Assembly: GCA_030523555.1 (NCBI GenBank)
Contig: JAUNIH010000011.1
Span: forward strand, 1 to 36,395
Direction: 5' to 3'
Source of the DNA: Erysipelotrichaceae bacterium
Lineage (GTDB): Bacteria > Bacillota_I > Bacilli_A > Erysipelotrichales > Erysipelotrichaceae
DNA: 36,395 nt
Numbering within the stretch: position 1 is the first letter of the stretch; every line of letters begins with the position of its first letter. The position numbers and the translations under genes are program-made. The notes beneath the pieces were generated by a model. It worked only from the letters and a program-made list of their open reading frames with translations, did no database searches and had not been told where the DNA came from. This document shows, in pieces, positions 34,053 through 35,525 of this stretch.

Positions 34053-34162
34053 GGAAAAAATCCCTGAAATGTATCTAAAAGATACGGAAAAAATCCCTAT
34101 TTATAGTAAAAGTATCGGAAAAAATCCCTATTTTTAATTGAAAATCATGGAAAAAATCCCTA
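34053..34162 (+). repeat. Four phased copies of GGAAAAAATCCCT upstream of the DUF4143 ATPase gene
   Basis: Exact 13-bp copies start near 34053, 34086, 34117 and 34150, spaced 31-33 bp apart, about three helical turns. The core GGA-AAAAA-TCC has palindromic ends. Spacers vary, so this is not a minisatellite of identical long units. The last copy lies between a TTGAAA -35 and a TATAAT -10, so a bound protein would block the promoter. Nothing else occupies the gap after the methyltransferase gene. Confidence 0.8.
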
Positions 34163-34167
34163 TAATT
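34138..34167 (+). promoter_or_regulatory. Promoter of the DUF4143 ATPase, apparently leaderless
   Basis: TTGAAA and a perfect TATAAT, about 18 bp apart, are followed by only six bases before the ATG, with no Shine-Dalgarno. Initiation 6-7 nt past the -10 would start the mRNA at or beside the start codon. Positions may be off by one base. Confidence 0.6.
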
Positions 34168-34172
34168 AAGTT

Positions 34173-35525
34173 ATGTTAAGAAGAAAGATATCATCAGAGC
34201 TTCAAAGATGGTTAAATACCGATCATAAACTGCTGTATATTGTGGGGGCAAGACAGGTAGGTAAAACCTATATTCTGAAAAAACTGATAAATGATAATTT
34301 TGAAAACCGTGTATATGTGAATATTCTTGGTGATGCGCGTACATACAATGTCTTAAGAAAATCACAGAGTGCTCAGGATTTTATTGAAAGAATCATTAAT
34401 CTTTATCCGGTACTGGAAAAAGAAAACAGCGCTATCTTTATTGATGAAATACAGGTATTTTATGATGAAGACAGTTCATTGAAAGATAATAATGATAAAA
34501 AGATTTTTGATATTCTTACCTTGAGTAAAGAGATAGTGATTAATACAGATATCAGGTTTATCTTTTCGGGATCACTTTTAGGGTCTATAAGTTCTTCTGT
34601 AAGATCATTTCCAGAAGGATACTGTCTGATGTATCAGATGTATCCATTGGATTTTGAAGAGTTTATGTGGGCAAACGATATAAGTGAAAAGACCATCAGT
34701 GACCTGAAGTATTCGTTTGATAATCTTGAACCGGTCAAGGATTATGTTCATGATGATCTGATCAGACTCTATAAGATATATCTGATGGTTGGCGGTATGC
34801 CGGAAGCTGTTGCGACATATGTCGATAAACATAATTTCAATGATGTAGAAGCGGTTCATAAATCAATAGAAGAGTTTATTCAGTTTGATATAAGTCAGTA
34901 CGCACCTAAAAAAGACAAGATTCATATCAAAAATATCTATAAACTTCTTCCAAGTGAACTGAATAAGGAAAACAAGAGGTTTATTCTTTCGGATATAGAA
35001 TCCAAATCCAAAAACAACAAACTCGAGACAGCTTTTGAATGGATTCATGGTGCAGGTGTAAGTCTTCCTGTATACAATACGAGTTCGCCTGAGCTTCCTT
35101 TAGAAATTAACAAAAAGTCTACCCTGGTAAAAGTATTTCATGAAGATGTGGGTATTCTTACTTATCTGCTGTTTAAAGCTTCAGCCAAACTTTCACTGAT
35201 AGATGGTGATATCAGTATCAACTACGGTTCCATCTATGAAAATGCGGTAGCACAGTCTTTAAACAGTCATGGATTCCCGCTTTATTACTATAATTCCAAG
35301 AAACAGGGTGAACTTGATTTTATTATTGAATATGATAATTCTGTTTTACCGATAGAGGTTAAATCAGGAAAGGATTATCAGAAACATTCAGCACTCGATA
35401 ATATTATGAAGATAAAAGATTACAGGATAGAAAAAAGTTTTGTATTGTGTAATCAGAATCTTTATGTGGATGAAAATATCATATATCTTCCGATATATAT
35501 GGTAGATTTTATACAGAAAAGATAA
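34173..35525 (+). CDS. AAA ATPase with C-terminal DUF4143 domain
   Basis: A 450-residue protein of the family found in many copies in gut bacteria and archaea. The N-terminal AAA_14 domain has Walker A VGARQVGKTYIL and Walker B AIFIDEIQVF, with sensor FIFSGSLLGS. The C-terminal DUF4143 domain contains QGELDFIIEYDNSVLPIEVKSG, which has the D-(x)n-ExK spacing of PD-(D/E)xK nucleases. Family function is not established; links to defence or mobile elements are often proposed. It lacks a ribosome site and sits behind four phased repeats, an arrangement suited to tight repression. Confidence 0.88.
   Translation: MLRRKISSELQRWLNTDHKLLYIVGARQVGKTYILKKLINDNFENRVYVNILGDARTYNVLRKSQSAQDFIERIINLYPVLEKENSAIFIDEIQVFYDEDSSLKDNNDKKIFDILTLSKEIVINTDIRFIFSGSLLGSISSSVRSFPEGYCLMYQMYPLDFEEFMWANDISEKTISDLKYSFDNLEPVKDYVHDDLIRLYKIYLMVGGMPEAVATYVDKHNFNDVEAVHKSIEEFIQFDISQYAPKKDKIHIKNIYKLLPSELNKENKRFILSDIESKSKNNKLETAFEWIHGAGVSLPVYNTSSPELPLEINKKSTLVKVFHEDVGILTYLLFKASAKLSLIDGDISINYGSIYENAVAQSLNSHGFPLYYYNSKKQGELDFIIEYDNSVLPIEVKSGKDYQKHSALDNIMKIKDYRIEKSFVLCNQNLYVDENIIYLPIYMVDFIQKR

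Follow-up and report, generated by a model that had tools for sequence, protein, structure and literature searches.

A repeat array across the promoter of an ATPase gene

The window (the whole 36,395-nt stretch of Erysipelotrichaceae DNA that was analysed) poses the question of why four copies of a single word should be lined up immediately in front of an ATPase gene, and of what might read them. The features concerned are as follows.

34053-34065, forward strand: repeat copy 1, GGAAAAAATCCCT, exact, starting 3 bp past the stop codon of a methyltransferase gene upstream
34086-34098, forward strand: repeat copy 2, GGAAAAAATCCCT, exact, 33 bp after copy 1
34117-34129, forward strand: repeat copy 3, GGAAAAAATCCCT, exact, 31 bp after copy 2
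34138-34166, forward strand: sigma-70-like promoter, TTGAAA-17-TATAAT, 11/12 consensus positions, assigned by consensus match only
34149-34161, forward strand: repeat copy 4, GGAAAAAATCCCT, exact, 32 bp after copy 3, between the -35 and the -10
34173-35525, forward strand: gene for a 450-aa ATPase-nuclease, AAA_14 at residues 18-165 and DUF4143 at residues 239-399, PADLOC PDC-S01
34920-35177, forward strand: putative winged-helix DNA-recognition region (residues 250-335), showing the best covariation with the repeat word

The initial annotation had described four exact copies 31-33 bp apart, the last of them between the promoter hexamers and with the ATG 6 nt further on, and this description is borne out in each respect. 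The copies, separated by AT-rich spacers, follow one another at 33, 31 and 32 bp, while the 17-nt spacer between TTGAAA (34138-34143) and TATAAT (34161-34166) is filled by copy 4, which overlaps the -10 by one base; the ATG at 34173 lies 6 nt downstream of that hexamer. Homologues start at the same residue as the window ORF. As no Shine-Dalgarno-like sequence was found ahead of this ATG, a leaderless mRNA is plausible for the window gene. Leaderless transcription is not the family rule, and 161 of 212 homologues possess a Shine-Dalgarno-like sequence. Upstream of two other family genes (L101 and L112), a -10-like hexamer is likewise positioned just 6 nt from the ATG.

Allowing up to two mismatches, GGAAAAAATCCCT occurs six times in the window against an expectation of 1.66, a count reached by no shuffle. 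In the whole 1.79 Mb genome the exact word is confined to the four array copies (the backwards control gave 0). At up to two mismatches the genome contains 72 matches versus 52 for the control, which is background level, and no second cluster. No other three-copy array with a period of 31-34 bp occurs in the 36 kb window.

The gene product as a member of PDC-S01

The window protein matches AAA_14 (E value 3.3e-20) and DUF4143 (8e-27), and the PADLOC PDC-S01 profile matches it across residues 1-449 (1.3e-146), identifying it as a full-length member; the best models are PDLC04792, PDLC04786 and PDLC04788. PDC-S01 is classed by PADLOC as a single-gene phage defence candidate. According to a 2026 survey it joins an ATPase to a PD-(D/E)XK domain, the same build as that of the window protein, and ranks fourth among the commonest defences across prokaryotes; most PDCs are described there as awaiting experimental validation (PMC12988326).

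Across 211 homologues, the Walker A/B residues G25, R27, G30, K31, D91 and E92 are conserved at 99% or more, and the PD-(D/E)XK residues are E356 (99%), D382 (92%, with E in 7%), E395 (97%) and K397 (100%). Since these Walker and nuclease residues are 92-100% conserved, both activities are probably intact. Residues 250-335, which lie between the ATPase and the nuclease, form a probable winged helix, a fold that the sequence features typical of DUF4143 proteins lead us to expect at this position. AlphaFold models were of low confidence (pLDDT 42 for the whole protein and 57.5 for residues 242-340) and leave the winged helix unconfirmed. A Foldseek search with the low-confidence model of residues 242-340 returned nothing significant, and profile searches revealed no close solved structure, the matches being limited to AAA domains and, at a weak level, to 2fna and a UPF0102 protein.

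The arrangement recurs across a clade

Homologues were drawn from the genus, the family, the phylum, viral contigs and 50 unrelated genomes, covering several phyla and including plasmid copies from Bacteroides, Segatella, Prevotella, Collinsella, Agathobacter and Acinetobacter. A gene was scored as having an upstream repeat if a 14-bp stretch recurred with at least 13/14 matches at a lag of 31-34 or 63-67 bp within the 260 bp upstream. Such a repeat precedes 146 of 212 close homologues, compared to 2 of 212 dinucleotide shuffles, while the same search retrieved it from 1 of 90 downstream flanks and from none of 212 gene interiors. The lags peak at 32, 33, 64-66 and 99 bp, and a three-copy score of at least 36/48 is reached by 60.7% of genes, by 0% of shuffles and by at most 0.5% at other periods. 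The 128 clear arrays mostly comprise three copies (four in 27 and five in 5), and their paired spacings are mostly equal, with 84 instances of 33+33 and 28 of 32+32.

Searching all 1.44 Mb of fetched DNA yielded 147 arrays, 129 of which precede a scored family gene, and approximately 8 of the remaining 18 precede further intact or truncated family members; as this DNA was collected around family genes, the rate of arrays elsewhere is only roughly known. Three broken or truncated family genes (L047, L049 and L035) still have a recognisable array in front. Approximately 30% of the close homologues are without a clear array, and among distant DUF4143 relatives just 3 of 28 possess one. Given this difference from the 146 of 212 close homologues, the array is a mark of the clade around the three best PDC-S01 models named above, and not of the whole superfamily.

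The repeats overlap a promoter-like site in 85% of the 67 genes that have such a site, versus 83% expected merely from both sitting near the ATG. A fixed phasing of repeats to promoter was therefore rejected, the promoter phasing showing no sign of constraint. Conservation is seen in the interval between successive repeats, and not in that between repeat and promoter.

Repeat words are private and track the protein

By their words, the 128 clear arrays group into approximately 85 clusters, 69 of which are singletons, and a word is common to only 4 of 132 same-genome pairs; a paralogue in the window's own genome (L031), for instance, has its own word, AACGGGGATTTGCGT. Three-copy words are asymmetric, and the words display no excess of dyad symmetry over shuffles. 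We also considered GGAAAAAATCCCT as a general, conserved regulator site. A scan of 85,000 genomes for pairs of its 11-mer produced 82 matches, nearly all chance or coding repeats, and as a single one of these precedes a family member (L232, Muribaculaceae, period 33), this possibility was rejected. A common word, TTGAAAAAGTGT, gave three matches in viral contigs, with periods of 22 and 30 bp.

Sharing of words follows protein identity: 88% of pairs at 80% identity or above share their word, 43% at 60-80%, and 0.8% at 25-30%. The overall correlation between word and protein similarity is a rho of 0.15 (permutation sd 0.025). Once corrected for overall identity, the partial correlation with the word is +0.26 for residues 250-335, a value equalled by none of 2000 permutations, +0.16 for the nuclease region and -0.19 for the AAA core. 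Given the signal from the nuclease region, the word may be recognised by more of the protein than residues 250-335. Among the 247 pairs with ATPase parts of 50% identity or more and 250-330 parts lower by at least 20 points, only 2% share a word. Among 60 phylogenetically independent pairs, in which each gene was used once, rho is 0.74 for residues 250-335, 0.63 for the nuclease and 0.58 for the AAA core; the excess of residues 250-335 over whole-protein identity (rho 0.22, P 0.09), together with the contrast of winged helix minus AAA (P 0.04), is weaker in this set and only suggestive.

These data bear on several proposals of the initial annotation. That the array serves as an operator for the ATPase itself is strongly favoured, in that the arrangement recurs and the word changes with the protein, the binding being read from this covariation; the suggestion of a multi-copy, possibly defence-linked family is favoured by the PDC-S01 match. 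The word itself, which was to be sought before other DUF4143 genes, proved private and is not conserved there, whereas the arrangement is. A spacing of three helical turns holds approximately, the family value of 32-33 bp being slightly above it, while the distance from repeat to promoter varies.

Array and gene move together

Three family proteins (L059, L061 and L062) are 97-98% identical, with L061 sitting at a different place from the other two. Its homology to them stops at -116 to -120 upstream, just beyond the array, and at +43 downstream, and in other close groups (L095, L100, L101 and L112) upstream homology is also lost at the outer array edge. Since the homology of near-identical copies ends just outside the array, array and gene travel together as one unit. 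Closely similar words are retained by a plasmid copy (L148) and a viral-contig copy (L373) that are 76% identical. At the window locus no insertion boundary was found, relatives with the downstream gene lacking the same neighbours.

The L061 unit is flanked by direct repeats (approximately 1252-1400 and 2816-2962 on the reverse complement) of up to approximately 150 bp and 88-91% identity, with GATACCATTTTGCTACCATG as an att-like motif and the hairpin ACGTAAA..TTTACGT. The second copy of this direct repeat is missing from the near-identical L059 and L062, and the L061 flanks look like the attachment site of a site-specific cassette or ICE.

Proposed mechanism and alternatives

We consider it probable, with room for doubt, that the array is a private operator which the gene product binds cooperatively, repressing its own promoter. 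The ATPase, winged-helix-like domain and PD-(D/E)XK nuclease would together constitute a protein that uses residues ~250-335 to read the word of its own array and that occupies the three to five copies at 32-33 bp by cooperative assembly, with one subunit or dimer per repeat, about three helical turns apart. As the array spans the -35/-10 region, such an assembly would repress transcription of its own gene and hold down the level of the ATP-driven nuclease, which might sit parked on the array pending release by a signal such as phage infection or an ATP-bound state. Each family copy would have drifted to its own word, such that same-genome paralogues do not cross-regulate, and gene plus array would have spread as one cassette. 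The conservation of repeat-to-repeat rather than repeat-to-promoter distance favours an ordered ATPase assembly in which each repeat takes one unit and the promoter becomes occluded in consequence. The sequences directly show the array with its spacing and position, the covariation of word and protein, the intact active-site residues and the co-mobility; binding, repression, the oligomer, the release signal, nuclease activity and a defence role are what we infer.

The same conserved distance would also suit a protein that binds the array mainly as an assembly, parking or immunity site, a DNA sink beside the gene from which locus loss or invasion frees the nuclease, autorepression being a by-product; the conserved nuclease residues and the single mobile unit made of array and gene are likewise compatible with this. 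Yet the arrays lie across the core promoter and not elsewhere near the gene (1 of 90 downstream flanks), a position for which an operator needs no extra assumption, and we regard a sink as unlikely. Rather less likely still is a strong version of the operator proposal, according to which the array would be a DNA-encoded antidote: each nuclease, ordered as an oligomer along its private array, would be kept inactive there, and invader-induced events or loss of the locus would free it to attack DNA. If true, a single gene would make up an addiction and defence module in which a DNA element plays the antitoxin, and diversification of the words would prevent copies from neutralising one another.

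A separate host regulator might bind the array in place of the ATPase, as in the closest regulatory precedent, RptR, a separate small repressor acting through three direct repeats in a defence-island promoter, these being 9-mers with the palindrome TAGCTA at a site conserved across bacteria (PMC12255303). The two cases share direct repeats in the promoter of a defence gene (here a candidate one); however, repeats of the window family recur at 32-33 bp, with an asymmetric word that is private to its gene, and in place of TAGCTA in 9-bp direct repeats the window has GGAAAAAATCCCT at 31-33 bp. Moreover, the words vary among genes of the same genome and shift with the ATPase, chiefly with residues 250-335, no recurrent partner gene was seen beside the loci examined, and roughly as many regulator versions as words would be required, making a separate regulator very improbable. 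The arrays are also reminiscent of a site for segregation or movement of the unit, akin to a centromere (parC/tubC iterons) or a transposon end (TnsB-type arrays). Iteron arrays, known from plasmid origins and parC/tubC, are evenly spaced direct repeats that are cooperatively bound and often overlap the promoter of their binding protein, a geometry and promoter overlap that resemble those seen here; the unit also moves, its L061 copy being flanked by direct repeats with an att-like motif. The family gene is, in contrast, solitary, with a nuclease domain and many words per genome, most copies examined are on chromosomal contigs, and no replication or partition partner was seen. Transposon ends have sites at both ends of the unit, whereas here a single array lies on one side of the gene and the 31-34 bp repeat appears in that 1 of 90 downstream flanks, such that a segregation or movement site has very little probability. 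An origin of the repeats by chance, or as simple sequence in an AT-rich region, might be argued from the AT-rich spacers and the ease with which single words arise; it is refuted by the upstream repeat counts, by the placement of the arrays in the fetched DNA and by the three-copy threshold (61% of genes, 0% of shuffles), and has next to no probability.

The promoters of toxin-antitoxin systems and the controller (C) proteins of restriction-modification systems are likewise cases of self-contained autoregulation of a potentially harmful toxin or nuclease gene; the present family differs in that neither an antitoxin nor a controller gene is present, and the DNA-binding part appears to be carried by the effector. 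For PDC-S01, the upstream arrays are a new element, unmentioned in the papers found that name it. No description of them was found in the open-access literature outside preprints, which is weak evidence of novelty.

PDC-S01 ranks with the most abundant candidate defence genes, and the arrays offer a direct way into its mechanism: they name the probable DNA target of each copy, predict the domain that reads it, and provide natural specificity variants by the dozen, sufficient for deriving a recognition code. A further suggestion from the arrays is self-regulation of a large ATPase-nuclease family via operators specific to each gene, and the coexistence of up to tens of paralogues within a genome would then be accounted for.

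Other repeats and distant relatives

A small Nanoarchaeota genome (G593, that of L183; loci L313-L320) contains 28 distant DUF4143 ATPase matches, and the distant relatives fetched are mostly without a 32-33 bp array. Five loci (L098, L084, L083, L091 and L030) have two copies only upstream, of palindromic words such as CATTTTTCATATGAAAAATG and ATCTGCAAATTTGCAGAT. Finally, a viral contig without a family gene (L260) carries, from position 466, three exact copies of the 16-bp GCCATTGTCTAACCTG at 32 bp, possibly a CRISPR-like array.
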